Assembly: GCA_017462015.1 (NCBI GenBank)
Contig: JAFTRX010000125.1
Coordinates: 1 to 42,359 of the forward strand
Direction of reading: 5' to 3'
Length of the DNA: 42,359 nt
DNA from: Lentisphaeria bacterium
GTDB taxonomy: Bacteria > Verrucomicrobiota > Lentisphaeria > Victivallales > Victivallaceae
Shown here: one piece after another, positions 4,819 to 38,027 of the stretch
Layout: every line of letters starts with the position of its first letter
Numbering within the stretch: position 1 is the first letter of the stretch
Position numbers and translations under genes: made by a program
The notes under the pieces: model-generated
Told to the model about the DNA's origin: nothing
The model's input: only the letters and a program-made list of their open reading frames with translations
The model's database searches: none

Positions 4819-4867
4819 AAGTGTAGAAAAGTCGTTAAATTATAATAAAACTTGAAGGACCTTGAAA

Positions 4868-18192: not shown

Positions 18193-18215
18193 ACCAAAAA
18201 AGGAGGAGGCGTCGT

Positions 18216-18974
18216 ATGGATAATGTAAGTATCAAGTCCCACTGCAGTGGGAGTAAAACGTATCGTTTTACTCTTATCGAACTTCTTGTTGTTATCGCTA
18301 TTATCGCAATTCTTGCTGCGATATTGCTTCCGGCGATCCAGAGTGCCAGACTGCGCGGGTTGAGTGCCGGTTGTATGAATAACCAGAAACAAATGGGCGG
18401 AGCTATCCAAATTTACGTCAACGACAGTGAATGGGTTCCGTATCACATGAGCGGTCAATCCCGGTGGTACAGTATGAGACGTCTTTTCCCGGGCGCAAAT
18501 ATATCTGCCAATACGGCAGCCGGTATCACGCACACCAATCTTCCGGAAGGAGAACCGGAACGGCGCGGTGTTCAGACTTTTTTCTGTCCGCAGCGTTATC
18601 AGCATCCGCTTCACCGCTTGCGTGCCAACGGCAACAATAAACGCGCCAGTGCTGATGTCTACTTTACCTGGACGATAGATATTGCCACTTCTCAGCTTTT
18701 TGCGCATGACAGAAATACCAAATTCAGCCGGATCAAAAAGCCGGGGCAGAAGTTTGCCATGATGGAAATTTCCCGGCAGACTGTCGGCAGCAGCTACACC
18801 CGTTACCACTGGATAAACTCCAACGTCTTCCCGCACGCAAAACATGCCAATGTGCTGCACTGGGACGGACACTCTGCTGCTTACAAGGAAGAGCTGCCCT
18901 ACTTCTATCATGAATACGGCGGCACCAAAGCCGGAAACAGACAGGCTCAACATTATTGGGATTATGATTTTTAA
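18216..18974 (+). CDS. Prepilin-type N-terminal cleavage/methylation protein (H-X9-DG family)
   Basis: 252 residues. The N-terminus has a type IV pilin-like leader with hydrophobic helix [20 protein letters not shown] (E22 at mature position +5). The residue before the usual cleavage site is Arg17, not Gly. The C-terminal part has an exact H-X9-DG motif ([12 protein letters not shown]), as in DUF1559-type pseudopilins common in Planctomycetes and Lentisphaerota. It is membrane-anchored with an extracytoplasmic body. A strong AGGAGGAG precedes the ATG. It sits between the regulator and the DUF4838 array, so a role in presenting or secreting those enzymes is possible but inferred. Confidence 0.85.
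18237..18273 (+). repeat. Two adjacent perfect inverted repeats inside the prepilin leader
   Basis: The 16-base palindrome TCCCACTGCAGTGGGA (18237-18252) is directly followed by arms GAGTAAAACG (18251-18260) and CGTTTTACTC (18264-18273) around TAT. They encode residues 8-19 of the leader, starting 21 bases into the gene. Two perfect hairpins so close to the start codon are unlikely by chance. Confidence 0.75.
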
Positions 18975-18997
18975 TATTTTCAAATATAAGGTGGTGT

Positions 18998-21475
18998 ATG
19001 AAGAAGACAATTTTATTCCTGGGAGCAGTGCTTATGACTGTTGCAGCAAGTGCCTTTGAATTGGGCAAACAGGGGGCAAACATCTATTTCAACCGGATCA
19101 ATACCCGTCCGGCACTGGAGATGAGTCAGCTTCTCGGAAAGGTGTTCGGTAAGAAGTATAAAGCTGTTCAGCTCAAAAACAGCGATTTTTCCAAACCGGG
19201 TATCTACATCGGGTTCCCCGCTCCCGGTGCAAAATTGAACATTCCGGCAGATAAAAAAGAATTTATTGCTACGTTTGCCGACAGCAACCGGGTATTCCTC
19301 TGGGGCAATGACAAAGAACAGCTCAACGGCAGTGCGTTTGCCGTTGCTGAATTTCTGGAAAAATATGCCGGTGTCCGTTTCCTTTGGCCCGGAGAATTGG
19401 GTACTGTTGCCGAACGGAAAAAGCCGGTCACGGTGAAAAATGGTCTTGACCTCTATATCCCGCCTTTCGATCTGCGTTTGACCAAAAGTTTTCACTATGG
19501 TTCGCGCAACCGTACCGTGCAGGAAAACTTTGACCTCGACAACTGGCTCAAGCACCACAAAGTCGGACAGTCTGTTCGCGCTCACCGCGGTTCCGGCTTC
19601 CAGCACGCATTTGAAGACCTGATGCCCCGTGAAGTTTACGGCAAAGAGCATCCGGAATATTACGCTCTGGTCAGTCCGAAAAACTGGATCGGTGAACCCA
19701 AGCCGGATAAACCGACCCGCTTGAGCGATCCCACCATGCCCGGACCGTGGCAGCTTTGCACTTCCAACCCGGATGTGCGCCGCATCATCGCAGAGAAACT
19801 TGCCGCCACCAAAAGCGAAGGCATCCAGTCGATTTCTCCCAATGACGGCTATGGTTTCTGTGAATGTGCCAACTGTCTTGCTCAGGATGGCAAAGATGCT
19901 GAACGCAGTAAAAAAAGCCGTTACTTTGTCCTGACCAACCGCATGTACAACTTTGCTGAAGATATTGCCAATCAGGTGAAAAAGCTCAATCCCAAAGCTA
20001 AAGTCGGCATGTTTGCGTACAGTTTCTATGACGGCGTTCCGGATGGAAAAATCAAATTCCCCGGAAACATGTACCTTTCTTACTGCTATCTGGTTTACGG
20101 AACAAGAAACAAAGCGGAAGAAGATTTTATCAACAACAAGATACTCGGACTTTCCGCCACCGGAGCCAAAGTCATCGGTCGTGAATACTGGGGAACTCAC
20201 TACACCATGGAGTATCCGCTCTCTCACAGCCGCAAAATCGACCGCAATATCAAAACTCTGCGTCAGGGCAATGCCGCCGGTATCTACGGTGAGACCGGAT
20301 GCAGTTTCGGACCGCGTGCTTCCGACTTGTACATCCTTGCCAAATTGAGCTGGAATCCGGATTTGAAACGCGAAGACATTCTGATGGATTTCTGCGTTTC
20401 CGCCTTCGGCAAAAAAGCCGCTCCGGTGATGTTTGAACTCTTTGAAAAGATTGAAGACCGGGTGGAAAAAGGTTTTGCGGTTGACCCCGATACCGCCTGT
20501 CCCAATTACAAATTTTACCGCAACTCTTACTCCAAAAACAATTACGTCATGGCGCGGATATTCGGTCGTGATTTCAGCAAAATCTGCAATGACTATTTCC
20601 GGAAAGCTGCCAAACTGATCAAGACCCCGGAACAGAAAGCGCGTTTGCAGTACATTATGAACGGCGTGAATTTTTCCAGAGTCACCAGCGATGTCTTGTG
20701 TGCCTATCAGGATCTTGCCGCAATCGGTCTCAATATGCCGCTTACCATGCCGTCGGAATTGAAGGTCACCATGGAAAAAAATGCTATTCTTTCCGTGATC
20801 CGTGCCGCGTCCAAGGCTTATAACGAAAAAGAGTTTTACATCAACCGTTACAGCCTCGCCAACAACATCGCCCGTTCCCGCCGTTCCAACGCGATGAATT
20901 TGCGCCCGTGGGGAGCGATGACCGAAATCGCCTCCATCGATCTTGCTTCCGACAAATTCAACTATCTGGTCAATGGCGCGTTTGAATACTCCGCTTACAG
21001 CTGGGATATCAAAAATCTCAAGGGCAAGAGTAAAAATGCTTTTGTCACCACCACCAACTGCGATGCTGACAACAACTACATGGTGACCAGCCACGCTTAT
21101 CAGGGAATAAGTTTGCAGCTTGACCTGGTTCCCGGTGCGGAAGTGGAGATAAATCAGCTCCGCCCGATCGGTGCTAAAGAGCCGATGGAGGCGCGTTTCC
21201 GCATGTTTGTCAAATCCGCTTCCGGCAATCCGGTGAAATATCTCAAGGTTTTCCTTGGTGACAAACAGCTGGATATGGTCGCCGTTGAAGATGAGACCCG
21301 CGCCAATGGTGACTGGTATGAGCTGCGTTCCAAGGCGCTGGAAATCGTCCCCGGAACGTACACCTTCCGTATCGTGGTCGCCAATCCCGTCGGACTCTTT
21401 GGCGGAGATGCGCTTACGCTCAATTTTGATGAGTTGCGCCTGCGTTTGAAATCAGTTAATAGAATTACCAAATAA
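18998..21475 (+). CDS. Secreted DUF4838 protein, copy 1
   Basis: 825 residues; Sec signal peptide MKKTILFLGAVLMTVAASA, then FELG. Residues 20-150 resemble an alpha-glucuronidase N-terminal domain (AVAEFLEKYAGVRFLWPGELGTV). The centre is the DUF4838 barrel: GSGFQHAF, HPEYYALV, CTSNPDVRRII, SISPNDGYGFCECANC (N282-C293) and GREYWGTHYTM (E396), then YGETG (E432). E396 and E432 are candidate catalytic acids by conservation among the copies. A C-terminal 200-residue beta domain follows. It is probably an exported or periplasmic glycan-active enzyme, but DUF4838 activity is not established. It is first of five tandem paralogues; AAGGTGG precedes the start. Confidence 0.88.
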   Translation: MKKTILFLGAVLMTVAASAFELGKQGANIYFNRINTRPALEMSQLLGKVFGKKYKAVQLKNSDFSKPGIYIGFPAPGAKLNIPADKKEFIATFADSNRVFLWGNDKEQLNGSAFAVAEFLEKYAGVRFLWPGELGTVAERKKPVTVKNGLDLYIPPFDLRLTKSFHYGSRNRTVQENFDLDNWLKHHKVGQSVRAHRGSGFQHAFEDLMPREVYGKEHPEYYALVSPKNWIGEPKPDKPTRLSDPTMPGPWQLCTSNPDVRRIIAEKLAATKSEGIQSISPNDGYGFCECANCLAQDGKDAERSKKSRYFVLTNRMYNFAEDIANQVKKLNPKAKVGMFAYSFYDGVPDGKIKFPGNMYLSYCYLVYGTRNKAEEDFINNKILGLSATGAKVIGREYWGTHYTMEYPLSHSRKIDRNIKTLRQGNAAGIYGETGCSFGPRASDLYILAKLSWNPDLKREDILMDFCVSAFGKKAAPVMFELFEKIEDRVEKGFAVDPDTACPNYKFYRNSYSKNNYVMARIFGRDFSKICNDYFRKAAKLIKTPEQKARLQYIMNGVNFSRVTSDVLCAYQDLAAIGLNMPLTMPSELKVTMEKNAILSVIRAASKAYNEKEFYINRYSLANNIARSRRSNAMNLRPWGAMTEIASIDLASDKFNYLVNGAFEYSAYSWDIKNLKGKSKNAFVTTTNCDADNNYMVTSHAYQGISLQLDLVPGAEVEINQLRPIGAKEPMEARFRMFVKSASGNPVKYLKVFLGDKQLDMVAVEDETRANGDWYELRSKALEIVPGTYTFRIVVANPVGLFGGDALTLNFDELRLRLKSVNRITK

Positions 21476-21497
21476 AACAACAAAGCAAGGAGTCATT

Positions 21498-23927
21498 ATG
21501 AAAAAATCATGGTTGACCGGTCTGGTGTTGTGCTGTACGGTGATCGCATCCGCCTTTGAAGTGGGCAAAAGTGATGCGGTTATCTACTACAATGCCAGAA
21601 ATAAGGCACATGCAGAGGAGTTGGGGTTTTATCTCAACAAGGTGTTTGGGAAAAAATACACTCTCAAAGCGGTGAAAAAAGTTTCATCTCTGCCCGGTAT
21701 CTTTGTCGGCTTCCAGCGTAAAGGCGACAAAATCAACGTTCCGGAAGAGAAGGAATTCACCGCCATCAGCGCCGCCGGAAATCAGCTTTTCATCTACGGC
21801 AGAGACAATAAATATCTCAACTGCACCGGTTACGCTGTCGCTGAATTTCTGGAAAAACATGCCGGTGTCCGTTTCCTCTGGCCCAGTGAAATCGGTACGG
21901 TCGCAGAAAAAAAAGCTCCCGTGACGGTCAAAGACGGACTTGATCTCTTTGTTCCGCCCTTCGATATCCGCCTGACCAGCAGTTATGTCAACGGTCGCGG
22001 CGGTATCAACGATAAAGATTGGGGCTATCTGGTTGATTGGGCGCGGCATCGCAAAATAGGCAGCTCCATCCGCCGTCGCGGATCGGGTTTCCAGCACGCG
22101 TTTGCCAGTCTGTTTCCCCGGGCAAAATATGGCAAAACCCATCCGGAATACTATTCTCTTGTTACTCCGGAAAAGTGGATCGGCACCCCCAAGCCGACCG
22201 TTCCCACCCGGACTAACGAATATGGTCCTGACCAGATTTGCACCTCTAATCCGGATGTCCGCCGCATCATCGTCGAAAAGCTTGTCTCTTACAACGATGA
22301 CCGCGTTCATTCCATTTCCGCCAACGATGGTTTCGGTTTCTGCGAATGTGCCAACTGCAAAGCACAGGATGGACCGGATGCCAATCGTTTCCGCCGCGAC
22401 CACCAGATGGTGACAAACCGTATGCACAACTTCGCCATGGATATTGCCAACCGGGTGAAAAAACTCAATCCCAAAGGCAAAGTCGGTATGTTTGCCTACA
22501 GTTTCTACGATGGCATTCCGGATTTCAAAGTCAAATATCCCGGCAACATGTATCTCTCTTACTGCTACTCGGTTTACTCTGCCAAAAATCTTGCGGAGGA
22601 AAAAATCATCAATGACAAACTGCTCGCGCTTTCCGCCACCGGAGCGAAGGTCGTCGGCCGTGAATACTGGGGTACTCACTACACGATGAACTATCCGCTC
22701 TCTCACAGCCGAAAAATCGACCGCAACCTGAAGACATTGCTCAAAGGCAACGCCGCCGGTATCTACGGTGAACCCGGAAAGAGTTTTGCCACCCGGGGCA
22801 GTGACCACTACATTCTTACCAAACTTGCCTGGGATCCCTCGCTCAAGCGCGAAGACATCCTCCACGAGTTCTGCCTCGCGGCGTTCGGTCCCAAGGCCGC
22901 GCCCGTGATGTACGAGCTTTATGAAAAAATCGAAGACTGGACTCAGAACGGCGTTGCGAACAAAGATAAACGGGGCGTCAACTTCAAGTACTACAACAAC
23001 GGTTACGCCGAATTCAACCGTTTGATGTCCGATATGTACAATGATAAATTTATCAAAATGTGCAACGGTTACTTCAAAAAAGCGGCGAAACTGGTCGACA
23101 CTCCGGAACGCAAAGCGCGCTTGGAATATGTCAAAAACGGTATCCTCTATGCCAAGTATATCACCGATGCACTGGTTTCTTACCGCGACCTTGCCGCAAT
23201 GGGTATGAATATGTCTCTCACTCAGCCTTCCGGCTTGAACACCATCATGGAGCGCAGTGAGATCAGCAAAGTTGCCTCCCGCGCCGTTGCCGCTTCCAAA
23301 GCAAAACGTTCTTTTGCCGCTTCCCGCGGCGGACATTTCGGATTCTTCCACAGTACCCGCAGTGACAGCATCAATCTGCGCCCGTGGCAGACTCTCGCGG
23401 AAATCGCCCTTTCCAATATCAGAACCGGCTCTTACAACTTCCTTGTCAACGGTGCGTTTGAATACACCACTTACAGCTGGGATATCTCCGGTACCGGAAA
23501 GACCAAATGTGTCGTTGATGTCAACTGCGACGCTCAGGCCAACTACATGGTTCACAGCCACGCCAATCAGGGTATCAGCATTAAGATCGACCTTGAACCG
23601 GGGCAGTCGGTGAAATTTGTCCAGAAGCGCCTTATCGGAGCCAGGGAGAAAAATCTGGTCAACGGTCAGATCATGGTCAAGTGTGACGGCGATCCGACGG
23701 AACTGGTCAAAGCCTGGTTTGGCAATAAGGAAATCGAGCTTAAATGGGTGAACGAAGGTCTCAATGACAAAAACGGCTGGAATGAATTGCGTTTCAAAGC
23801 CTTTGACATCGAACCCGGAACTTATGATTTCCGTATGGAAGTTGCCAATCCCAAAGGTTTCTTCGGCGGCAGCGCCAAAACGGTTTATGTCGATGATATC
23901 AAAGTTCAACTTAAAAAAATCCGTTGA
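21498..23927 (+). CDS. Secreted DUF4838 protein, copy 2
   Basis: 809 residues with signal peptide MKKSWLTGLVLCCTVIASA before FEVG. Same architecture as copy 1, with SISANDGFGFCECANC, GREYWGTHYTM and YGEPG in place of YGETG. By eye it is very close to copy 3: long blocks are identical in DNA, including 23721-23824. It differs from copy 3 by an extra short segment (GGINDKDWGYLVDW) before HRKIGSSIRRRGSGFQHAF. GGAG lies six bases before the ATG, 22 bases after copy 1. Duplication with later divergence at the substrate-facing loops would fit different glycan targets; this is inference. Confidence 0.88.
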   Translation: MKKSWLTGLVLCCTVIASAFEVGKSDAVIYYNARNKAHAEELGFYLNKVFGKKYTLKAVKKVSSLPGIFVGFQRKGDKINVPEEKEFTAISAAGNQLFIYGRDNKYLNCTGYAVAEFLEKHAGVRFLWPSEIGTVAEKKAPVTVKDGLDLFVPPFDIRLTSSYVNGRGGINDKDWGYLVDWARHRKIGSSIRRRGSGFQHAFASLFPRAKYGKTHPEYYSLVTPEKWIGTPKPTVPTRTNEYGPDQICTSNPDVRRIIVEKLVSYNDDRVHSISANDGFGFCECANCKAQDGPDANRFRRDHQMVTNRMHNFAMDIANRVKKLNPKGKVGMFAYSFYDGIPDFKVKYPGNMYLSYCYSVYSAKNLAEEKIINDKLLALSATGAKVVGREYWGTHYTMNYPLSHSRKIDRNLKTLLKGNAAGIYGEPGKSFATRGSDHYILTKLAWDPSLKREDILHEFCLAAFGPKAAPVMYELYEKIEDWTQNGVANKDKRGVNFKYYNNGYAEFNRLMSDMYNDKFIKMCNGYFKKAAKLVDTPERKARLEYVKNGILYAKYITDALVSYRDLAAMGMNMSLTQPSGLNTIMERSEISKVASRAVAASKAKRSFAASRGGHFGFFHSTRSDSINLRPWQTLAEIALSNIRTGSYNFLVNGAFEYTTYSWDISGTGKTKCVVDVNCDAQANYMVHSHANQGISIKIDLEPGQSVKFVQKRLIGAREKNLVNGQIMVKCDGDPTELVKAWFGNKEIELKWVNEGLNDKNGWNELRFKAFDIEPGTYDFRMEVANPKGFFGGSAKTVYVDDIKVQLKKIR

Positions 23928-23935
23928 GGTGATAT

Positions 23936-26344
23936 ATGAAAATCAAAACTTTATTGTTCTTCATTTCCACAGTCGCCATTTGTGCTGCGGCTGCCGCATT
24001 TGAACTCGGCAAGAGTGATGCCGTGATTTACTACAATGCGAAAAATCAGATTTATGCCAAAGAGTTGAGCTTCTATCTCAACAAAGTTTTTGGCAAAAAG
24101 TATACGCTCAAAGCGGTAAAGAAAGCCTCTTCTCTGCCCGGTATTTTTGTCGGTTTCCAGCGCAAAGGTGATAAAATCAACGTTCCGGAAGAGAAGGAAT
24201 TTACCGCCATCAGCGCCGCCGGAAATCAGCTTTTCATCTACGGCAGAGAGAATAAATATCTCAATAACACCGGTTACGCTGTCGCTGAATTTCTGGAAAA
24301 ACATGCCGGTGTCCGTTTCCTCTGGCCGGGAGAACTTGGTACGGTCGCTGAAAAAAAGGCTCCGGTTTCAATCAAAGATGGTCTTGACCTTTATGTCCCG
24401 CCCTTTGATATCCGCCTGACCAACAGCTACAAAGGTTCCGGCACTCTTGGTGTCTGGACGCGCCACCGCAAGATCGGCAGTTCCATCCGCCGTCGCGGTT
24501 CGGGGTTCCAGCATGCATTTGCCAGTCTGATCCCCCGCAAAAAGTACGGAAAAACCCATCCGGAATACTTTTCGCTTGTTACCCCGGAAAAATGGGTCGG
24601 CACTCCCAAACCGACGGTTCCCACCCGCACCAATGAATACGGTCCTAACCAGATCTGTACCTCCAATCCGGAAGTGCGCCGCATCATTGCTGAAAAGCTG
24701 GCTTCCGCTCAGGATAACTACGTCCGTTCCATTTCTGCCAACGACGGCTTCGGCTTTTGCGAATGTGCCAACTGCAAAGCGCAGGATGGCCCTGATGCCA
24801 AACGTTTCCGCAGCGGTCATCAAATGGTGACCAACCGTATGCACAACTTCGCCATGGATATTGCCAACCGGGTCAAGAAACTCAATCCCAAAGGCAAAGT
24901 CGGAATGTTTGCGTATAGCTTCTACGATGGTATACCTGATTTCAAGGTCAAATATCCCGGCAATATGTATCTCTCTTACTGCTACATGGTCTATGCCGCC
25001 AAAGATCTTGCCGCTGAAAAAATCATCAATGACAAACTGCTCGCACTGTCCGCTACCGGAGCGAAGGTCGTCGGCCGTGAATACTGGGGTACTCACTACA
25101 CGATGAACTATCCGCTTTCCCACAGCCGCAAAATCGACCGCAACCTTAAAACTTTGTTCAAAGGTAACGCCGCCGGTATCTACGGTGAACCCGGAAGCAG
25201 CTTTGCCACCCGTGGCAGTGACCACTACATCCTGAGCAAACTTGCCTGGGATCCCACGCTTAAACGTGAAGATATTCTGATGGATTTCTGCGTTTCCGCT
25301 TTCGGTCCGAAAGCAGGAAAGGTCATGTATGACCTCTACGAGAAAATCGAGGACTGGACTCAAAATGGTATCGCCAACAAGACCAAACGCGGTGTCAACT
25401 ATCAGTATTACACCAACAGCTACGCTGAATTCAACCGTTTGATGTCCGATATGTACAATGACAAGTTTATCAAAATGTGCAACGGTTACTTCAAAAAAGC
25501 GGCGAAACTGGTCGATACTCCGGAGCGCAAGGCACGTTTGGAATATGTCAAAAACGGTATCCTCTATGCCAAGTATATCACCGGCGCGCTGGTTTCCTAC
25601 CGCGACCTTGCGGCAATGGGTATGAATATGTCTCTCACCCAGCCCTCCGGCTTGAACACCATCATGGAGCGCAGTGAGATCATCAAAGTCGCCTCCCGCG
25701 CCGTTGCCGCTTCCAAAGCGAAACGTAATTTTGCATCCTCCCGCGGTGGAAACTACGGTTTTTACCACAGCACCCGCAGTGACAGCATCCATTTGCGCCC
25801 GTGGCAGACTCTTGCGGAAATTGCTCTTTCTGATTTGAAGACCAATACTTACAACTTCCTTGTCAACGGTGCGTTTGAATACACCACTTACAGCTGGGAT
25901 ATCACCGGCACCGGAAAAACCACGCACGTTTACGATACCAACTGCGATGATCCGGGCAACTACATGGTGCACAGCCATGCCAATCAGGGTATCAGCATCA
26001 AGATCGACCTTGAACCGGGGCAGTCGGTGAAATTTGCCCAGAAGCGCCTCATCGGAGCCAAAGAGAAAAATCAGGTTTCCGGACATATCATGGTCAAGTG
26101 TGACGGCGATCCGACGGAACTGGTCAAAGCCTGGTTGGGCAATAAGGAAATCGAGCTTAAATGGGTGAACGAAGGTCTCAATGACAAAAACGGCTGGAAT
26201 GAATTGCGTTTCAAAGCCTTTGACATCGAACCCGGAACTTACGATTTCCGTATGGAAGTTGCCAATCCCAAAGGCTTCTTCGGCGGCAGTGCCAAGATGG
26301 TCTATGTTGATGACCTCAAGGTGCAACTCAAGAAAATTCGCTGA
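23936..26344 (+). CDS. Secreted DUF4838 protein, copy 3
   Basis: 802 residues, the shortest of the five, with signal peptide MKIKTLLFFISTVAICAAAA before FELG. It has all the shared motifs (CTSNPEVRRII, SISANDGFGFCECANC, GREYWGTHYTM, YGEPG). It lacks the extra segment of copy 2 in the loop before TRHRKIGSS. The 3' half is nearly identical to copy 2, marking this pair as the most recent duplication or a gene-conversion pair. GAGGTGAT precedes the ATG, eight bases after copy 2. Confidence 0.88.
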   Translation: MKIKTLLFFISTVAICAAAAAFELGKSDAVIYYNAKNQIYAKELSFYLNKVFGKKYTLKAVKKASSLPGIFVGFQRKGDKINVPEEKEFTAISAAGNQLFIYGRENKYLNNTGYAVAEFLEKHAGVRFLWPGELGTVAEKKAPVSIKDGLDLYVPPFDIRLTNSYKGSGTLGVWTRHRKIGSSIRRRGSGFQHAFASLIPRKKYGKTHPEYFSLVTPEKWVGTPKPTVPTRTNEYGPNQICTSNPEVRRIIAEKLASAQDNYVRSISANDGFGFCECANCKAQDGPDAKRFRSGHQMVTNRMHNFAMDIANRVKKLNPKGKVGMFAYSFYDGIPDFKVKYPGNMYLSYCYMVYAAKDLAAEKIINDKLLALSATGAKVVGREYWGTHYTMNYPLSHSRKIDRNLKTLFKGNAAGIYGEPGSSFATRGSDHYILSKLAWDPTLKREDILMDFCVSAFGPKAGKVMYDLYEKIEDWTQNGIANKTKRGVNYQYYTNSYAEFNRLMSDMYNDKFIKMCNGYFKKAAKLVDTPERKARLEYVKNGILYAKYITGALVSYRDLAAMGMNMSLTQPSGLNTIMERSEIIKVASRAVAASKAKRNFASSRGGNYGFYHSTRSDSIHLRPWQTLAEIALSDLKTNTYNFLVNGAFEYTTYSWDITGTGKTTHVYDTNCDDPGNYMVHSHANQGISIKIDLEPGQSVKFAQKRLIGAKEKNQVSGHIMVKCDGDPTELVKAWLGNKEIELKWVNEGLNDKNGWNELRFKAFDIEPGTYDFRMEVANPKGFFGGSAKMVYVDDLKVQLKKIR

Positions 26345-26355
26345 AGGATCGAGCA

Positions 26356-28830
26356 ATGAAATTGAAATTTTTTATAACCGGAGTGCTGACGGTCGCAATT
26401 TGCGCTACCGCTGCCGCCTTTGAACTTGGCAAGAGCGATCAAACGATCTATTTCAGCCGCGGCAACAATGTTCCGGCGGCTGAAATGAGCAAGCTGCTCG
26501 GCAAAGTGTTTGGAAAAAAATACAAAACTGTACTTCTTGGCAAAGCGGACAAAAAGAGCCTCAGCAATCCCGGCATTTACATCGGTTTTGCCGCTCCAAA
26601 ATTGAAGTATTCCATTCCCGCTGATAAAAAGGAGTTTATCGGAAGATACGCTGATGACAAGCGGCTTTTTGTCTGGGGAAATGACAAGGAAGGTCTCAAA
26701 GGTTCGGCGTTTGCCACCTTTGATTTTCTGGAAAAGTTTGCCGGTGTCCGTTTCCTCTGGCCCGGTGAACTCGGTACGGTTGCCGAAAAGAGCAAGCCGG
26801 TAACGGTTCCCAACGGGCATGATATTTTTGTTCCGCCCTTTGAATTGCGCATGACCAGCAGCTTTACCTACGGCAGAACCACTCTCACTCTGCAGGAGCG
26901 CAACGATCTTGACCGCTGGCAGGATCATCACAAGGTCGGCCGTGCCACCAAGTCCCGTGGTTCCGGCTTCCAGCATGCGTTCAACGGCCTGCTGCCGCGC
27001 CAGGTTTACGGCAAGGCGCATCCGGAATATTACTCGCTTATCACGCCTGAGCGCTGGATCGGTATGCCCAAACCCAACGTTCCCACCCGGAAAAACGATC
27101 CCACCGTTTCCGGGCCGTGGCAGGTTTGCACCTCCAATAAAGATGTGCGCCGCATTTTTGCTGAGAAAATCGCCGCTTCCAAGGATGGCAGGATCCGTTC
27201 CATCTCCCCCAATGACGGCTATGGTTTCTGCGAATGTGCCAACTGCAAAGCACAGGATGGTAAGGATGCCCAGCGTACCGGCAAAGCCGGACACCTGCGT
27301 GTGACCAACCGTATGTATGATTTTGCTCAGGATATCGCCTGGCAGGTGTGGAAGCTCAACCCCAAGGCGCGGGTCGGCATGTTCGCCTACAGCTTCTACG
27401 ACGGCATTCCGGATCAGAAGATCAAGTTCCCCCCGAACATGTATCTTTCTTACTGCTATATCATCTACCGCGCCGAAGACAAAGCCGCTGAAGATGAGAT
27501 CAACAACAAACTCACCGCGCTTGCCGCCACCGGTGCAAAGGTCATCGGCCGTGAATACTGGGGATGCCACTACACCATGGGGTATCCGTTGAGTCACAGC
27601 CGCAAGATCGACCGCAACCTCAAGACGTTGTACAAGTGCAACGCCGCCGGTATCTACGGCGAAACCGGCAAAAACTTCTCCTGCCGCGGCACCGATTTGT
27701 ACATTTTGTGCAAACTGGCCTGGAATCCGACGCTGAAACGCGAAGATCTCCTCAAAGATTACTGCGATGCCGCTTTCGGTAAAAAAGCCAGTCCCGTGAT
27801 GTACGAACTCTTTGAAAAGATCGAAGACTGGGTAGAGTCCAATACCCGGAAATTCAAGACTCAAAAAGGCGTGAATTTCAAGTATTACAAAAATGATTAT
27901 GCTGAGTTCAACCGCTTCCAGGCATCTATCTTCAATGAAGAGTTCAACAGGATGTGTAAAACATATCTCAACAAGGCTGCCAAACTTGCTGACTCCGCTG
28001 ACCGCAAGGCGCGTGTCAACTTCTTCCGGATCGGTTTGATGAAGGCGCTGAATACCACCGAATTTCTCCGTGCCAACGCGGATCTGGCTGCTATCGGTGT
28101 CAATATGCCGTTGACTCAACCGTCCGCAAACCTCATTCCCATGGAAAAGAGCGAAGTGATGAAGACGGTTCAGAACGCCCTTAACGTCAACAAAAAACGG
28201 AATATTTATTCATACACCTACGGGAACAACTTCGCTTTCGACAGAGGTCTGGGCAATGTGATCAATCTCCGTCCGTGGCACACGCTTGCCCAGATCGCCC
28301 GGATCGACATCCTGACCGGAAACTTCAACTATCTGGTCAATGGTGCTTTTGAATACTACGGTTACAGCTGGGATGCCAAAGCGGTCAAAGGCAGCGCCAA
28401 AAGCGCGCTGGTCACCACCGATAACTGCGATGCCCCCAATAACTTTATGGTCACCAGCCACGCCGGGCAGGGGGTGAGTTTGCAGACAGACCTTGAGCCC
28501 GGTGCTGTAATGGAAGTCAAACAGCTCCGCCCCATCGCCGCCAAAGCTCCCATGCAGCTTTCCGGTCAGATGTTTGTCAAGTGCCCCGGCGGTGAGCCGC
28601 AGAAATTCGTCAACGCCTGGTTCGGAAAACACAAGCTGGAACTGATTTGGGTCGACAAAGGTATGCAGACCCGCGTTGACTGGTGCGAAGTCCGCTTCAG
28701 ACCCATCGTCGTTGCCCCCGGAAAATATGATTTCCGTTTCACGGTCAGTAATCCTGCCGGGAAGGTGAAAGTTTTCAATTTTGACGATTTGCGGCTGCAG
28801 TTGAAAGAGATCAAGCGTGTTGCCAAATAA
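26356..28830 (+). CDS. Secreted DUF4838 protein, copy 4
   Basis: 824 residues with signal peptide MKLKFFITGVLTVAICATAA before FELG. Its signal region resembles copy 3 at DNA level, while its body (AGRATKSRGSGFQHAF-like loop, SISPNDGYGFCECANC, GREYWGCHYTM with Cys for Thr, YGETG) resembles copies 1 and 5. It may therefore be a mosaic. Two extra cysteines (GREYWGC, FSCRGT) lie near the putative active site. GAAGGA lies before the ATG, 11 bases after copy 3. Confidence 0.88.
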   Translation: MKLKFFITGVLTVAICATAAAFELGKSDQTIYFSRGNNVPAAEMSKLLGKVFGKKYKTVLLGKADKKSLSNPGIYIGFAAPKLKYSIPADKKEFIGRYADDKRLFVWGNDKEGLKGSAFATFDFLEKFAGVRFLWPGELGTVAEKSKPVTVPNGHDIFVPPFELRMTSSFTYGRTTLTLQERNDLDRWQDHHKVGRATKSRGSGFQHAFNGLLPRQVYGKAHPEYYSLITPERWIGMPKPNVPTRKNDPTVSGPWQVCTSNKDVRRIFAEKIAASKDGRIRSISPNDGYGFCECANCKAQDGKDAQRTGKAGHLRVTNRMYDFAQDIAWQVWKLNPKARVGMFAYSFYDGIPDQKIKFPPNMYLSYCYIIYRAEDKAAEDEINNKLTALAATGAKVIGREYWGCHYTMGYPLSHSRKIDRNLKTLYKCNAAGIYGETGKNFSCRGTDLYILCKLAWNPTLKREDLLKDYCDAAFGKKASPVMYELFEKIEDWVESNTRKFKTQKGVNFKYYKNDYAEFNRFQASIFNEEFNRMCKTYLNKAAKLADSADRKARVNFFRIGLMKALNTTEFLRANADLAAIGVNMPLTQPSANLIPMEKSEVMKTVQNALNVNKKRNIYSYTYGNNFAFDRGLGNVINLRPWHTLAQIARIDILTGNFNYLVNGAFEYYGYSWDAKAVKGSAKSALVTTDNCDAPNNFMVTSHAGQGVSLQTDLEPGAVMEVKQLRPIAAKAPMQLSGQMFVKCPGGEPQKFVNAWFGKHKLELIWVDKGMQTRVDWCEVRFRPIVVAPGKYDFRFTVSNPAGKVKVFNFDDLRLQLKEIKRVAK

Positions 28831-28855
28831 ATTTTAATATAGGACGTTGAAAAGA

Positions 28856-31333
28856 ATGGAATTTAAAAAACTTTCACTGCTCGCTCTGTCTCTGCTGATT
28901 TCCGTATCAGCAGCTGCCTTTGAGTTGGGCAATGCGGATGCCACCATCTGGCACAGCAAAAAAAGTGCCGCGCAGGCGCAGGTTTTGCAGAAGTATCTGA
29001 GCAAGGTTTTCGGGAAAAAATATTCTCTGAAACTTTACACTAAAGGGAAACATCTTCCCGGAATTTTTGTCGGCATCCAGCAGCCCAATGCCACGCTCAA
29101 GGTGGATGTTGAACGCGACTACACCGTCATCCACAGTGAAAAAGACAAAGTTTACATTTACGGTAATGACCGTGCCAAACTCACCGGTACTGCCTATGCG
29201 GTTGCCTCCTTTCTGGAAAAATATGCCGGTGTCCGCTTCCTCTGGCCCGGTGAACTCGGTACGGTTGCCGAAAAAAGCAAGCCGGTTACGGTCAAAGAGG
29301 GTACTGATCTCTATGTGCCGCCGTTCAAGCTGCGCATGACCAGCAGTTTCACTTACGGAATGCGTATTCTTTCTGCCAAAGATGCTGCTGATCTCCATAC
29401 CTGGCTGCTGCGGATGAAGACCGGCCGTTCGATCTTCTCCAGCGGTTCCGGGTTCCAGCATGCATTCTTCCATCTTATTCCGCGTGAAAAATACGGAAAA
29501 GAACATCCGGAATATTACTCTCTGGTCACTCCTGCCCGGTGGATCGGCGAACCCAAACCCACCGTCCCGACCCGGCGCAACGATCCCAGTTTCGGCGGGC
29601 CTGCTCAGCTTTGTACATCCAATAAAGATGTCCGCCGGATAATTGCACAAAAGATCGCCTCTCATAAAGATGGCAAAATCCGTTCCATCTCTCCCAATGA
29701 CGGATTCGGGTTCTGCGAATGTGCAAATTGTCTTGCTCAGGATGGCAATGACTCCAAGCGCTTGCGCAATAATCACTTGACGGTGACCAACCGCATGTAC
29801 GATTTTGCCGAGGATATTGCCAAACAGGTCTATAAAATCAATCCCAAAGCTAAAGTCGGCATGTTCGCCTACAGCTTCTACAACGGCGTTCCGGAACAGA
29901 AGATCCAGTTCCCGCCCAACATGTATCTCTCTTACTGCTACTTTATCGGTTTTACCAAAAACAGAGCTGAAGAAGATGAGATCAACAACAAGATCATCGG
30001 TCTCGGTAAAACCGGCGCCCAGGTCGTCGGCAGAGAGTACTGGGGAACTCATTATACCATGAACTACCCGCTCAACCACAGCCGCAAGATCGATCGTAAC
30101 GTCAAAGCTCTGCACAAAGCCAATGCCGCCGGAATTTACGGTGAAACCGGCAAATGCTTCGCTGCCCGTGCCAGTGATTTGTACATCCTGTGCAAACTCT
30201 CCTGGGAACCGACTCTGAAACGCGAAGCTCTGCTTAAAGAGTTTTGCGATGCCGCATTCGGTGCAAAGGCCAGTCCGGTGATGTATGAGCTCTTTGAAAA
30301 AATCGAAGACCGCGTTGAAACTTGCATGCCGCAATTTTTCTCCGGAAAAATGGTTAAATATTATCCCAACGGCTATGCTGAACGCAACCGGTTGATGTCG
30401 GAAGTGATCTTTAACGCCGATTTCCAGAAGATGTGCGCTCCCTACATCAAAAAGGCGCGTAAACTTGCCGATACTCCGGAACGCAAAGCGCGAGTTGACT
30501 TCATCAACCGCGGTATCCGTATGGCGGCGGTCACCACCGAATCTTTGCGCAGCATCGCCGATCTGGCGGCTGCCGGTGTCAATATGCCGCTGACGCAGCC
30601 CTCTGGCAACAATATCCGCATGGAGAAAAAGAACCTTATCAAGGTCGCTGCCCGTGCGGTCAAAGCTGAAGGTGCCCGCAACACCTTCCTGCTTGCCAAC
30701 TCCGGCGACAACGCCATCACCCGCGGCGTATTCTTCGGCGGTTCCAGTTTCAGTCTGCGTCCGTGGAAAGGTCTTTCGGAAATTGCTTTGATCCAGCTCA
30801 AGAACGGTATGTACAACTACGTTGTCAACAACGCGTTTGAATATTACGGTTACAGCTGGATCGTCAAAAACATCAAGGGCAATGGTTCGTTCAAATACAC
30901 CGCCGAAACCAACCGCGATTCCGATGATAACTACATGGTTCCCTGTCACGCAGGGCAGGGTATCAGTTTGCAGCTCGACATGCCTGCCGGGACAGAAATG
31001 AGTATTACCCAGCAGCGCCCGGCATCTTCCGATGTTCCGGTGCGGGCATCGCTCAGCTTCTTTGTCAAATCTGCCGGAAACCCGCTGAATAATCTCTCTG
31101 TCTATCTCGGAGACAAAAAGCTTGAAGGCGTTTGGGTCGATGAAAAGCTCAAGAGCGCTGACAACTGGCATGAGTTACGCTTTGTTCCGGTGGAATTGGC
31201 CCCCGGCGATTATCCGATCAAGGTGGTCGTTTCCAATCCGGCAAAGGATAAAGCTGTCACTGTCAACTTTGACAATTTCCAGTTGAAATTCAAAGAACTG
31301 CGCACTGTCGCAAAAAAAGGAGCAAAAAAATGA
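28856..31333 (+). CDS. Secreted DUF4838 protein, copy 5
   Basis: 825 residues from the ATG at 28856 (AGGA eleven bases upstream). The frame extends to a TTG at 28847, which is only two bases from that AGGA and is rejected. Signal peptide MEFKKLSLLALSLLISVSAA before FELG. All shared motifs are present (FCECANC, GREYWGTHYTM, YGETG). It ends in a basic tail KKGAKK, and its stop overlaps the next gene by four bases (ATGA), so translation is coupled to the sugar-isomerase-like protein. Confidence 0.88.
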   Translation: MEFKKLSLLALSLLISVSAAAFELGNADATIWHSKKSAAQAQVLQKYLSKVFGKKYSLKLYTKGKHLPGIFVGIQQPNATLKVDVERDYTVIHSEKDKVYIYGNDRAKLTGTAYAVASFLEKYAGVRFLWPGELGTVAEKSKPVTVKEGTDLYVPPFKLRMTSSFTYGMRILSAKDAADLHTWLLRMKTGRSIFSSGSGFQHAFFHLIPREKYGKEHPEYYSLVTPARWIGEPKPTVPTRRNDPSFGGPAQLCTSNKDVRRIIAQKIASHKDGKIRSISPNDGFGFCECANCLAQDGNDSKRLRNNHLTVTNRMYDFAEDIAKQVYKINPKAKVGMFAYSFYNGVPEQKIQFPPNMYLSYCYFIGFTKNRAEEDEINNKIIGLGKTGAQVVGREYWGTHYTMNYPLNHSRKIDRNVKALHKANAAGIYGETGKCFAARASDLYILCKLSWEPTLKREALLKEFCDAAFGAKASPVMYELFEKIEDRVETCMPQFFSGKMVKYYPNGYAERNRLMSEVIFNADFQKMCAPYIKKARKLADTPERKARVDFINRGIRMAAVTTESLRSIADLAAAGVNMPLTQPSGNNIRMEKKNLIKVAARAVKAEGARNTFLLANSGDNAITRGVFFGGSSFSLRPWKGLSEIALIQLKNGMYNYVVNNAFEYYGYSWIVKNIKGNGSFKYTAETNRDSDDNYMVPCHAGQGISLQLDMPAGTEMSITQQRPASSDVPVRASLSFFVKSAGNPLNNLSVYLGDKKLEGVWVDEKLKSADNWHELRFVPVELAPGDYPIKVVVSNPAKDKAVTVNFDNFQLKFKELRTVAKKGAKK

Positions 31334-32229
31334 TTTTGCCGGAAATGACCCATTATCTGGGGCCGGACGTGACGGGTGCCGCCATCGGCGCCCGCATGGA
31401 GGAGTTTGCCGGGGCGGGGATCAAACATCTTCAGCTCAATCCCAAAGATTTGCAGCGGATGAAGGATGATCCGGAGTATCGCCGTGAAATGTTTTATCAG
31501 GCAGATAAAAACAAGCTCACCATCCGGGATGCCCACGCACCGCACCAGGTCGAGGATTCCCTCGGTGTGCCGGTTCCGGTTGAACTGGTCATCAAATCCC
31601 AGCTCAACGCCATTGAGATCGCCGGTTCGCTGGGCTTGACCACGCTTACCATCCACGCCGGAAGAACGCGCCGGGTAGGGGAGTTTGCTCAAGATTACGG
31701 CCTGTTTCCCTATGTCGATCTGCCGGCTGCGGAAAAACGGGTTTGTCAGGCATTGGATGTATTGATCCCTGCGGCAGAAAAGAACAACTGCATCATCGCG
31801 CTGGAAAACCTGTTTCTCCCGGCATGTACAGCTGACTTCCTGACTCCGATCGTGGAAAAATACAACCACCCGAATCTCGGCATGTGTTATGATTCCGGAC
31901 ACGCACTGCTCGTTGAGGCACAGGAGGGCAAAACTTCCGACGATATTGCCGAATGGATCCGTTGCGGCTGGGACGATGATAAAGTCATCTTCCAGAGCGA
32001 TCAGCTTGACCGGATGCTGAATCAGGTCGTTACCACCCATTTGCATGACAACAATGGTAAAAATGACCAGCATCTCGCTCCCGGCGATGGTGTCGCCAAC
32101 TGGGACAGCATCATTGAGCGTTTGAAGAAAGCTCCGCGCCTGACCACGCTGCAGTCGGAGTTGATCGGCCGGTTGGTGGTTGCTCCTGCCAGTGACGTGG
32201 TTGAATGGTATAAGATGTTCAACATTTAA
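31330..32229 (+). CDS. Sugar phosphate isomerase/epimerase-like TIM-barrel protein
   Basis: 299 residues, no signal peptide. It belongs to the xylose isomerase-like TIM-barrel (AP endonuclease family 2) group. The expected metal ligands are visible: Glu in IIALENLFLP, Asp and His in LGMCYDSGHA, His and Asp in HLHDNNG, and Glu in LQSELIG. Such enzymes isomerise or epimerise sugars in the cytoplasm. Being coupled to five exported glycan-active candidates, it probably processes an imported product sugar. AGGAG precedes the ATG. Confidence 0.85.
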   Translation: MILPEMTHYLGPDVTGAAIGARMEEFAGAGIKHLQLNPKDLQRMKDDPEYRREMFYQADKNKLTIRDAHAPHQVEDSLGVPVPVELVIKSQLNAIEIAGSLGLTTLTIHAGRTRRVGEFAQDYGLFPYVDLPAAEKRVCQALDVLIPAAEKNNCIIALENLFLPACTADFLTPIVEKYNHPNLGMCYDSGHALLVEAQEGKTSDDIAEWIRCGWDDDKVIFQSDQLDRMLNQVVTTHLHDNNGKNDQHLAPGDGVANWDSIIERLKKAPRLTTLQSELIGRLVVAPASDVVEWYKMFNI

Positions 32230-32243
32230 AAGAAAGGTGTTTT

Positions 32244-35156
32244 ATGAAAAATGTAAAATTTTTGTTTGCAGTACTGGCGGCACTTATGGTGTCCGCAGTT
32301 TCCGCCGCCAAACCGGTCGGCGTGTGGAAGGGGAATTCCTGGAACCGCTTGGGTGAATTGGTGAATGCCACCGTGTTCAACCCTCAATGGCACAAGGACA
32401 AACCGTTGACGGTCAATTTTACCGGAAAAGAGTTTGACAAAGTTTCTGCCGTCGTCTATCTGCATGGCAACAATCTCTTCCGTTTCCGCGAGTTCAACAA
32501 AACCAACATCGCGGCGATGGAAAAATTCGTCAGCAACGGCGGTGTGCTGCTTATTCTTGTGGACGGCGGAAGCGATCCCGGTGTCAGCAATACCCGGCTG
32601 ATGGCGAAATTGCTCGGCGCTAAAAAGTTCACCCGTTTGTCCAGTGTTCCGGAGCTGAAAGACCCCTCATGGAAGGATTGCGTTGCCGCTTCTGAAGTTT
32701 TTGAACACATGCTGGCACCGCGGGCAAACGCAAAAAAATCCGAACCGGCAGTGTCTGCCGGCTCTTCCCGGGCAATCAATGCAACACCTGCAAAAAGTGA
32801 TTTGGCAAATATGATCGCTTTGACCGGTCTCACCACCGCCAAACCGATCATCGGAGATGCATCCGGTGCGACCGTAACTGTCAATCAACTCGGCAAAGGT
32901 AAAGTTTATTTTGTCAACGTCCGGCTGACCGAGTCCCACACCAAATACTGGCAGCATTATCACGATGCCGCCAATGCCGCATGGGAACAATATCTTCCTT
33001 TTGCCAAAAAATTCCATTCTATCCTGATGAGTGTAAAACCGGCATTGAGCAAAGAAAAACGTGAGATATGGGATCCCACGCCCCTCGGTCCCAAAGCCTC
33101 TCCTGCCAAAATCAAACCGCGCACGCCGAAAAAGCTGGTGTCTGCCCGGAAATATGAAAAACTCAACGGCGCTCCGCTGGTTCTGGTTGCCAATGGCAAG
33201 CCGCAGGCACTGCTGATCGCCCGCCGCGTCGGCGAGCGCGCTGCCTTCGATACGCTCAACAATCTGCTGGTCAAAATGGCAGGAGCAAGCGCAAAACTGC
33301 CGCAACCGGCCCCGAAAGCGGTCGGAGCAAAAGGTGATAAATGGTCGTGGCGCCGGCAGGCTTACGCTACAAAGATCCAGTTCGAAGTTTCACCGAAAGT
33401 TGAAATCACTGCCTCCGGCAACACCATCACTATCAGCGCTCCGTCTCCCGTTATCGGTATTCAGACTTTCATGCGGGAAGCACTGGGATACCGCATGCTC
33501 TGGCCGGGCAAAGATGGTGAAGTCTACAACAAAAGCACCAGCATCAGCGTCGCGCCATTTAAACTCACTGACCGATCTCCGATCCGGCAGCGCGCTATCC
33601 GCAACGGTCTTTCCTGCGGAAAATATCCCTGGAAAACTCCGGAAGGAAAAGTTATTCAGATAAACTCCCGTCCCGGCATGAGCAAGGGCTGTGATATTAT
33701 CGGTCTTGACGTTCGTGAAGTGGTCAAGGCCCGCAGTGCGCATGGTTCCTGGGCTCCTGTCCAGCGGCTCGGCGGCACCCTCCGTGAAGGCGGCGGTGTC
33801 AACTTCTACAACTGGCAGAAAAAATACGGAAAAACCAAACCGCATTTGCTCGCGTTGCAGTTTGAAACTGTCCGTAAAATGAAAACTGCCCATGTCCGTA
33901 TTTGCAAATCCAATCCGGAAACCATCAAGATCGCCGTTCAGGAAGCGCTGGTCAATTTGAAGCGCCCCAAAAACAAAAATGTCGAATACTACCGCTTCTC
34001 TCCCAGTGACGGCGGATATGACATCATGTGCATGTGCGAAAATTGCCGCAAATGGGATCCTACCGGCGGATATGTCGGCACTTCCCGCGCTTTTCTCGGT
34101 CGTAACCGTCCCGTCTTCCAGTATCCCCGGATGACTGACCGCGTACTTCGCTTCACTTGCGAAGCGGCGCGAGAGCTGCAGAAGCATAAACCGAAGATGA
34201 AAGTCGTCTATCTGGCGTACGCCGGTTATCTGGCTCCGCCGGAATATTATCACGATGTCCCGGACAACATTCTCGTTACCTTCGTCGGCGGCGAATATCT
34301 CAACACCAAACAGCGTGATCGTGACCGCGCTTACTGGAAGTATTGGTCCGGCGTGGCAAAAGAGTTGTGCTGGCGTCCGAACTTCCTCGGCGGCGGCAGC
34401 GGTATGCCGCTGATGTATTTCCGGGAAATGGCGAATGACCTCAAACATTTTGCCTCCACCGGTATGGTCGGCGGTGATTTCGATACCCTGCCGCACCACT
34501 GGGCGACCAACGCGCTCAACTACTACATCCTCGCCAACTTGCTGTGGGATCCTGCCACTCCGCTTGAAGAGCTTATCAACGATTTCTGTGACAAAGGTTT
34601 CGGTGCCGCCTCTGCGGATATGAAGCGTTACTATGCTTACTGCGAAAAGCTCACCGGAAACTATGTTTCTCTCGGCGGTGAATCCATCAAGCAGATGGAG
34701 GATCTGACTGCGGTTCCGACCGGCGGTTTCGGCAAATTCTGCCGTGCATTTACGGCGGATGATTTCAAGAAACTGGAAGGCATTCTCGCTGATGCCCGCA
34801 AAAAAGTCGGGGCAGATTCACCGGAACTCCGCCGCATCGACTTCGTTGCCGCCGGGTTGAAATACTTCAAGCTGAACCGCGAATTCGCGATGAAGTATTG
34901 GAAGACTCCGGCAAAACAGCGCAAAACTCTTATTCCGGAAATCAACAAACTGGTTGTTGAATGGAAGAAGATTTTTGCAGAATATCCTTTCGCAATCAAC
35001 GTTCCGGCACTGGCAAGCGGCTATTATTACAGCTTCTTCCGCAACTGCGGTTGGAAGCCCGTGCACCAGTTCGCAAAAGGTGAACCGCAAAGCAGCAAAG
35101 ATTCCGGTAAAAAAGAGAAAAAGTCTGAGCCGAAGAATCTGCAAATAAGTCGTTGA
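32244..35156 (+). CDS. Long, divergent DUF4838-like secreted protein, copy 6
   Basis: 970 residues with signal peptide MKNVKFLFAVLAALMVSAVSA. Residues 30-270 are a Rossmann-like, ThuA/glutamine-amidotransferase-type domain (VVYLHGNN, NGGVLLILVDGGSDPGVSNTR) absent from copies 1-5. An alpha-glucuronidase N-like segment (FMREALGYRMLWPGKDGEV) follows, then the DUF4838 barrel with the cysteine motif SPSDGGYDIMCMCENC. The GREYWG and YGETG sites of the other copies are not conserved: the latter position reads GGDFDTLPHHW, so its chemistry may differ. AGAAAGG precedes the ATG. It is the last gene of the operon and has a low-complexity KSKKEK-type tail. Confidence 0.82.
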   Translation: MKNVKFLFAVLAALMVSAVSAAKPVGVWKGNSWNRLGELVNATVFNPQWHKDKPLTVNFTGKEFDKVSAVVYLHGNNLFRFREFNKTNIAAMEKFVSNGGVLLILVDGGSDPGVSNTRLMAKLLGAKKFTRLSSVPELKDPSWKDCVAASEVFEHMLAPRANAKKSEPAVSAGSSRAINATPAKSDLANMIALTGLTTAKPIIGDASGATVTVNQLGKGKVYFVNVRLTESHTKYWQHYHDAANAAWEQYLPFAKKFHSILMSVKPALSKEKREIWDPTPLGPKASPAKIKPRTPKKLVSARKYEKLNGAPLVLVANGKPQALLIARRVGERAAFDTLNNLLVKMAGASAKLPQPAPKAVGAKGDKWSWRRQAYATKIQFEVSPKVEITASGNTITISAPSPVIGIQTFMREALGYRMLWPGKDGEVYNKSTSISVAPFKLTDRSPIRQRAIRNGLSCGKYPWKTPEGKVIQINSRPGMSKGCDIIGLDVREVVKARSAHGSWAPVQRLGGTLREGGGVNFYNWQKKYGKTKPHLLALQFETVRKMKTAHVRICKSNPETIKIAVQEALVNLKRPKNKNVEYYRFSPSDGGYDIMCMCENCRKWDPTGGYVGTSRAFLGRNRPVFQYPRMTDRVLRFTCEAARELQKHKPKMKVVYLAYAGYLAPPEYYHDVPDNILVTFVGGEYLNTKQRDRDRAYWKYWSGVAKELCWRPNFLGGGSGMPLMYFREMANDLKHFASTGMVGGDFDTLPHHWATNALNYYILANLLWDPATPLEELINDFCDKGFGAASADMKRYYAYCEKLTGNYVSLGGESIKQMEDLTAVPTGGFGKFCRAFTADDFKKLEGILADARKKVGADSPELRRIDFVAAGLKYFKLNREFAMKYWKTPAKQRKTLIPEINKLVVEWKKIFAEYPFAINVPALASGYYYSFFRNCGWKPVHQFAKGEPQSSKDSGKKEKKSEPKNLQISR

Positions 35157-35196: not shown

Positions 35197-35208
35197 AGAA
35201 AAAGCATT

Positions 35209-35245
35209 GGGGCAGTTGCAAACTTTTGCAACTGCCCCAATTTTT
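35209..35245 (+). terminator. Rho-independent terminator of the DUF4838 operon
   Basis: Perfect 13-base stem GGGGCAGTTGCAA (35209-35221) with TTGCAACTGCCCC (35226-35238), loop ACTT, then AATTTTT. It lies 52 bases after the last stop codon. Confidence 0.9.
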
Positions 35246-37979: not shown

Positions 37980-38027
37980 AAAAATCACCTTCAGTGTTTT
38001 ATTTATAACGGCGGCAATCCCTGCGGA

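Follow-up and report, generated by a model that had tools for sequence, protein, structure and literature searches.

Why should a bacterial genome keep six DUF4838 genes head to tail beside one LacI-family regulator, and what might their products do? The window, i.e. the whole stretch of 42,359 nucleotides that was analysed, belongs to a Lentisphaeria genome (G000; 2.8 Mb, 131 contigs, 93% complete), which is compared below with three related species (G003, G018 and G042).

Layout and gene content of the row

The row occupies positions 17203-35156 of the forward strand and contains genes for a LacI regulator, a prepilin-like protein, six DUF4838 proteins (PF16126) and an AP_endonuc_2 TIM-barrel protein, all head to tail. 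Its features are the following:

17203..18192, + strand: LacI-family regulator, 329 aa (PF00356 44.4 bits, PF13377 91.1 bits)
18216..18974, + strand: prepilin-like protein, 252 aa, with a 12-residue H-X9-DG motif near the C-terminus (PF07963)
18998..21475, + strand: D1, DUF4838 protein, 825 aa (PF16126 113.7 bits; orthologues in three other species)
19841..19876, + strand: candidate catalytic loop of D1, codons N282-C293 (N282-D283, C288, C290 and C293, with C254 upstream; residue n starts at 18998+3(n-1))
21498..23927, + strand: D2, DUF4838 protein, 809 aa (PF16126 106.6 bits; 87% identity with D3)
23936..26344, + strand: D3, DUF4838 protein, 802 aa (PF16126 108.1 bits)
26356..28830, + strand: D4, DUF4838 protein, 824 aa (PF16126 117.4 bits; orthologues in three other species)
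28847..31333, + strand: D5, DUF4838 protein, 828 aa from TTG 28847 or 825 aa from the in-frame ATG 28856 (PF16126 114 bits; orthologues in three other species)
31330..32229, + strand: AP_endonuc_2 TIM-barrel protein, 299 aa (PF01261 84 bits; 4-base overlap with D5)
32244..35156, + strand: D6, longer DUF4838 protein of another clade, 970 aa (PF16126 99 bits)
35206..35241, palindrome on both strands: 16-pair hairpin after D6, a possible terminator separating D6 from the oppositely oriented gene that follows

From the start of the LacI gene to the end of D6 the row measures 17,954 bases, and its successive intergenic gaps are 23, 23, 22, 8, 11, 16, -4 and 14 bases. A preliminary description of this DNA had reported six DUF4838 genes in one row with LacI, prepilin-like and TIM-barrel genes and no gap above 25 bases; positions, open reading frames and PF16126 matches agree with it, and the largest gap is 23. 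Based on this spacing, the nine genes probably form a single operon. All six large proteins belong to PF16126 (99-117 bits vs a gathering cut-off of 26.6). The motifs FCECANC, GREYWG and YGE(T/P)G, already described as common to D1-D5, are found in each of these five proteins, and their equivalents in D6 are CMCENC, RPNF and GDFD. Signal peptides read by eye suggest that D1-D6 are exported; by the same reading the TIM-barrel protein is without one. The latter had been called an isomerase: its membership of the AP_endonuc_2 fold family stands, but the family match does not establish isomerase activity, and its score against the CbiR model (30.5 bits) is far under the cut-off of 105. The N-terminal extension of D6 has a weak DUF4159-like match (PF13709 19.5 bits, below the cut-off of 25.9).

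A promoter upstream of the LacI gene was considered and dropped, as the scan lists none there on the + strand; promoter-like sites number 12 vs 16.1 in shuffles. The hairpins of the region as a whole are about as many as in shuffles (28 vs 24.6). Beyond the array, the reverse strand contains genes for an S15 peptidase (36309-37988), a beta-helix protein with a GLAA-B (GH110-type) domain (38028-39692) and an FAD oxidoreductase with an F5/8 type C domain (39714-41879); relatives of these three genes were not found in the examined stretches beside the three other arrays described below. Upstream of the array, a fused class II aldolase/short-chain dehydrogenase is present (4862-6763, + strand), which we take to resemble rhamnose-degradation enzymes.

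Concerning the family as a whole, PF16126 gives 48 matches in G000, which correspond to 47 open reading frames when a 1918-aa frame with two DUF4838 domains (L011 3974-9730, - strand) is counted once. Two-match frames of 1917-1923 aa are likewise found in G018 (contig C25) and G042 (contig C23). PF16126 is present in 27 of 40 genomes (G000 included), the 40 having between 0 and at least 48 matches each. Across the class, 140 of 197 genomes (G000 included) possess DUF4838, 136 of them above the cut-off, the best ten candidates per genome being scored; in a loose first look one relative has 143 candidates. More than 100 loose candidates per genome are seen in G130, G131 and G066. Many DUF4838 genes per genome are common in the class Lentisphaeria. 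A contig labelled as a Clostridia MAG (L075) and a Lentisphaeria contig (L077) contain DUF4838 genes equal in length (824 aa) and score, for which mis-binning or transfer is a possible explanation. Among the DUF4838 operon neighbours scanned (100 of 101), some are carbohydrate enzymes, namely of rhamnosidase-type (3), GH1 (2) and MGH1-like (2) families, and many unrelated families are also found.

Candidate active site and fold comparisons

Residue conservation was read from an alignment of 101 family proteins, reduced from 134 by removing proteins contained in others; 20 of them are array-like, so that the sequences are not independent, and the counts were repeated on the other 81. Most family members of G000 share no more than 14-23% identity with D1. 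For D283, Asp is found in 100 of the 101 proteins and in 80 of the 81, and Y341 is present in all (101/101 and 81/81). At the D283 column the sole exception (L083 1113-3878, + strand) has Ala, which may reflect misalignment. The position of E432 (YGE) is occupied by E in 62, D in 27, Q in 6, N in 4 and other residues in 2 of the 101 proteins, that is by neither E nor D in 12; of the 81 proteins outside the array-like group, 69 have E or D there. E396 (GREYWG) is Glu in just 39/101 and 19/81 proteins, and E289 is Glu in 60/101. The preliminary description had named the two glutamates of GREYWG and YGE(T/P)G as strong catalytic candidates, a choice which these counts do not bear out, and the near-invariant D283 was missing from its candidates. 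Conservation, together with the weak alignments given below, points to D283 as most likely the acid/base, and the E432 position (E or D) would be the likeliest second carboxylate.

The four cysteines at positions 254, 288, 290 and 293 are found all or none: all four are present in 95 of the 101 proteins and none in 5, while one row is gapped. The proteins without the four cysteines that keep D283 are L003 3404-5749, L006 6043-8376, L013 6000-8030, L019 170-2605 and L020 229-2604. Cysteines at +5, +7 and +10 after D283 are found in D1-D5 and in 76 of the 94 family proteins with D283 plus four cysteines; the other spacings among the 94 are +7, +9, +12 (13 proteins, D6 included), +6, +8, +11 (4) and +9, +11, +14 (1). 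We infer that these cysteines hold a structural zinc. The conservation of D283, followed by cysteines spaced as in the GH42 zinc site, is new here.

Profile comparisons point to glycoside hydrolase relatives. The full-length profile of 45 proteins matches GH67 (1k9d, 9.2e-15), GH115 (4c90, 1.1e-12) and also GH84, the best stretch being the N-terminal domain, and the C-terminal part of profile A4 matches the N-terminal region of a beta-glucuronidase (2.1e-4). For the barrel, the alignments retained 75 of 85 prepared stretches (A7) and 55 of 86, trimmed to those with all four cysteines (A8). The top PDB match of the barrel-only profile (75 proteins) is the GH20 enzyme HEX-2 of T. suis (8qk1, E 2.9e-5), with GH67 at 2e-4. 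Read by column, N282-D283 falls on Asp198-Glu199 of 8qk1 and three of the four cysteines fall on cysteines; a short profile repeats the match at E 0.0024. The match is profile-dependent: profile A2 lists 8qk1 at E 0.0033, and it is missing from the A4 and A5 hits at E <=1. In HEX-2, Asp198 and Glu199 are described as the polarising and general acid/base residues; Zn lies near the pocket, and added Zn or EDTA has minor effects on activity (PMC11308363). D1-D6 differ from it in having Asp for its Glu and Asn or Ser for its polarising Asp, the aligned place being N-D in D1-D5 and S-D in D6, so that the GH20 D-E catalytic pair is absent.

After 8qk1, the short profile finds GH42 3tts at E 0.03, where N-D aligns with N-E and the C-x-C-x2-C cysteines stay in register; a protein named NF4 follows (E 0.06), presumably a chance hit. 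In Gal42, which was modelled on 3TTS, Glu148 is reported as the acid/base and Cys113, 153, 155 and 158 bind zinc, the last three at +5, +7 and +10 (PMC8573354). The same order of an acid preceded by Asn and followed by cysteines at +5, +7 and +10, with a fourth cysteine upstream, is seen in D1-D5 and not in D6, which is spaced otherwise; the first cysteine lies 35 residues before the acid in Gal42 and 29 before D283 in D1. PF02449 (GH42) and the GH115 Pfam family have no match in D1-D6, and neither does GH20 (presumably PF00728) at E 0.001. Single-sequence PDB searches of D1, D6, L003 and a canonical member gave nothing significant for the barrel, and that of L001 gave mainly GH2 sugar-binding domains outside its DUF4838 part. 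The idea that PDB 6q63 is a GH163 structure was dropped, as it is matched by the N-terminal domain only.

Glycan-acting enzymes, as proposed earlier, appear to be the best reading of the six proteins, with profile relatives in GH67, GH115, GH84 and GH20. We lean towards the reading that the row encodes glycoside hydrolases of the DUF4838/GH163 superfamily that are exported and degrade a single complex glycan outside the cytoplasm with divided roles, and that would use D283 as acid/base, a zinc site and a pseudopilin. That the proteins are instead exo-acting GH67-like uronidases, not hexosaminidase-like enzymes, is unlikely, even though the best matches of the full-length profiles (45-protein, A4 and A5) are alpha-glucuronidases and the hhalign score against GH67 is 44.3 vs 10-18 for reversed or column-shuffled controls. 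The similarity behind this score is located in the N-terminal domain (as with GH115) and at the end of the barrel, PF07488 (GH67) has no match in any of the six or elsewhere in G000, and the hhalign probability is 45-68%; an assignment to GH67 on this ground was rejected as too weak. The E of KADSE, which we take to be the catalytic acid of GH67, is aligned one column away from D283, where alignment confidence is low, and decides nothing. Because the GH67 alignment is not contrary and the GH20 match is profile-dependent, our confidence in the hydrolase reading was lowered and that in GH67-like uronidases raised.

Orthologous slots in four species

A search with D1 of 34 genomes of the genus (G000 included) found matches at E <=1e-40 in four, namely G000, G003, G018 and G042; several of the other 30 are incomplete, and absence of the array there is not firm. 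All four arrays are found at the same place, after PHP and MtlD-like genes. The G003 array contains LacI (97% identical), the prepilin (96%), D1, D2, D4, D5, the TIM-barrel gene and D6. G018 has a diverged prepilin (38%), D1, D3, D4, D5, the TIM-barrel gene and two D6 genes. In G042 the array consists of D1, a D3-like and a D2-like gene, D4, D5, the TIM-barrel gene and two D6 genes, and no prepilin gene was found beside it. LacI was not found beside the G018 or G042 arrays: the description of the row as LacI-led holds here and in G003 but not in those two species, and LacI, present in just 2/4 arrays, was rejected as a defining part. The search for the same array elsewhere, which had been suggested earlier, thus finds the gene order largely kept in three other species, and the tandem order is not chance.

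The tree separates D1, D2/D3, D4 and D5 into four clades, in each of which every one of the four species is represented (support 100/100), and identities are 79-93% within slots vs 52-60% between them. Since the clades are slot-wise and each holds all four species, the duplications predate these species and the copies were kept separately. D2 and D3 are a younger duplicate pair, with two copies in G000 and G042 and one in G003 and G018. Between G000 and G003 the four slot pairs have dN/dS values of 0.074-0.109, and two further orthologous pairs have 0.104 and 0.091; the values are 0.118 for D2/D3 and 0.243 for D1/D4. The D1, D2/3, D4 and D5 slots are under purifying selection, and these four orthologous slots across four species are new here.

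Gene dosage, by which near-equivalent enzymes would be amplified for output, is an improbable explanation of the copies. It would account for the tandem layout, for D2 and D3 being 87% identical and varying in number, and for the doubling of D6 in G018 and G042; dosage copies would, however, tend to be alike and unstable, whereas the four slots are far less identical between than within, are kept in four species and are under purifying selection. Slot-wise orthology fits the set with divided roles that the preliminary description had suggested. It is very unlikely that the D proteins chiefly bind glycans or act as scaffolds, their enzyme fold being dead or vestigial, a reading in line with the very high genome copy number, the variable E432 and the single characterised activity in the literature found, but one that fits the conservation of D283 (100/101) and Y341 (101/101) at 14-23% identity to D1 less well than catalysis does.

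Returning to the row as a set of exported glycoside hydrolases, D1, D2/3, D4 and D5 would be old duplicates kept as slots, most likely each preferring another linkage or decoration, with D6 as a distant partner enzyme. Each enzyme would comprise an N-terminal GH67/GH20-type domain and then a (beta/alpha)8 barrel, with D283 at the end of barrel strand 4 as the probable acid/base, E432 as the likeliest second carboxylate and Cys254/288/290/293 around a structural zinc. The TIM-barrel protein probably processes a released sugar in the cytoplasm, LacI, where present, would control the row, and the likeliest role of the prepilin-like protein is that of a pseudopilin which helps to secrete the enzymes or to hold them at the surface.

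Prepilin linkage and known systems

The prepilin of the array scores 20.6 bits against PF07963 in the window scan (cut-off 21.2) and 23.9, above the cut-off, in the genome search; it carries the N-terminal methylation motif by TIGR02532 (22.5 bits, cut-off 16.3). N_methyl matches number 68 in G000, 69 in G018 and 44 in G042. A DUF4838 start lies up to 3.5 kb downstream on the same strand of 21, 24 and 13 of these prepilins, respectively, vs about 2.0, 2.2 and 1.4 expected from genome density with clustering ignored; the three genomes are related and so not independent, and the G042 count uses 41/43 matches, two fragment rows being left out. DUF4838 genes lie upstream on the same strand in 5, 3 and 2 cases (G000, G018 and G042) and on the opposite strand in none. 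This placement of prepilin genes upstream of DUF4838, seen at approximately ten times the expected frequency in the three related genomes, is new here. It strengthens the earlier remark on the prepilin as far as linkage is concerned; the surface display also suggested there stays a proposal. The C-terminal motif, presumably the one named H-X9-DG, is found in 34/59 prepilin-like ORFs of the examined G000 loci vs 2/131 among the remaining ORFs of 200-450 aa, not all of which need be real genes.

Prepilins of G000 without a DUF4838 gene after them number 47. From these, 36 loci (L108-L143) were hand-picked; 31 have an ORF within 300 bases, and 30 were scanned, a 149-aa ORF (L125) being left out. 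Nine of the 30 downstream genes belong to a carbohydrate family above the cut-off (GH42 3, GH123 2, and one each of GH28, heparinase II/III-like, Laminin_G/CBM9 and polysaccharide deacetylase); two encode beta-helix proteins, six have carbohydrate-type matches solely below the cut-off, and the remainder belong to unrelated families (TatC, S66, periplasmic binding protein, FAD oxidoreductase and others) or have no match. Machinery for pseudopilin assembly is present in G000 (10 T2SSE and 8 secretin matches, one each below the cut-off, and 1 Peptidase_A24), although T2SSE matches also occur in 14/14 control genomes, so their presence says little alone.

LacI, prepilin, D1-type and D6-type genes also occur together on contig C56 of G000 (L009, with a polysaccharide deacetylase in addition) and on contigs C14 (L069) and C34 (L061) of G042; contig C21 of G018 (L063) has LacI, prepilin and two D1-type genes with only a weak D6-like stretch. 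Of the seven LacI matches of G000, the module accounts for two (contigs C74 and C56); another one on C56 has a prepilin gene behind it, close to the end of the contig. A tentative and rather doubtful extension is that exported enzyme sets here constitute a non-Sus glycan system, each carrying its own H-X9-DG pseudopilin that would couple it to a type II/IV secretion machine or a surface fibre; the module of LacI, prepilin, D1-type and D6-type genes, with the D1 slot expanded to five in this row, would be one form of it.

The four orthologous slots in four species offer a panel for testing how one fold is divided among linkages, and tests of the D283/cysteine prediction and of the pseudopilin linkage could reveal the way in which these gut bacteria handle complex glycans. 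DUF4838 is strongly amplified in the class, though a single activity is described in the literature found.

Among known systems, the Bacteroidota polysaccharide utilization locus resembles the row in its co-localised glycan-enzyme genes and sugar-type regulator; the row differs in that no SusC/SusD family was found among the 29 window proteins scanned. Pseudopilin expansion beside glycan genes is already in print, as Verruconatronum alginivorum (Verrucomicrobiota) is reported to have 67 homologues of the PulG-like pseudopilin of its alginate gene cluster, one pseudopilin being over-expressed on alginate (PMC13274419). Its enzymes are alginate lyases, whereas the linkage counted here is to DUF4838; our literature search returned no paper joining prepilin and glycoside hydrolase in the Lentisphaer- group. 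Concerning the enzymes themselves, the earlier statement that the family has no assigned activity is outdated: a Polaribacter DUF4838 protein is tabulated as GH163, termed endo-beta-N-acetylglucosaminidase (PMC9870897), a family in which one B. thetaiotaomicron enzyme is described as cleaving GlcNAc-beta-1,2-Man of complex N-glycans (PMC10154615) and under which BT_1035 is listed (PMC12834350). This is the single activity described for DUF4838/GH163 in the sources that the search returned. In the tree of the 101 family proteins, D6 falls in another clade than D1-D5, and a deep split separates D1-D5 from the high-scoring DUF4838 proteins (branch support 0.82-0.92); GH163 activity may therefore not carry over to them. 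With BT_1035 the row has the same Pfam domain in common, through one paper's annotation of the Polaribacter protein (PMC9870897), and it differs in the separate clade of D1-D5 with FCECANC, the tandem arrangement, the D6 partner and the prepilin. The row is likely a well-conserved, divided set of glycosidases, a variant of a known enzyme family that is abundant in the class.
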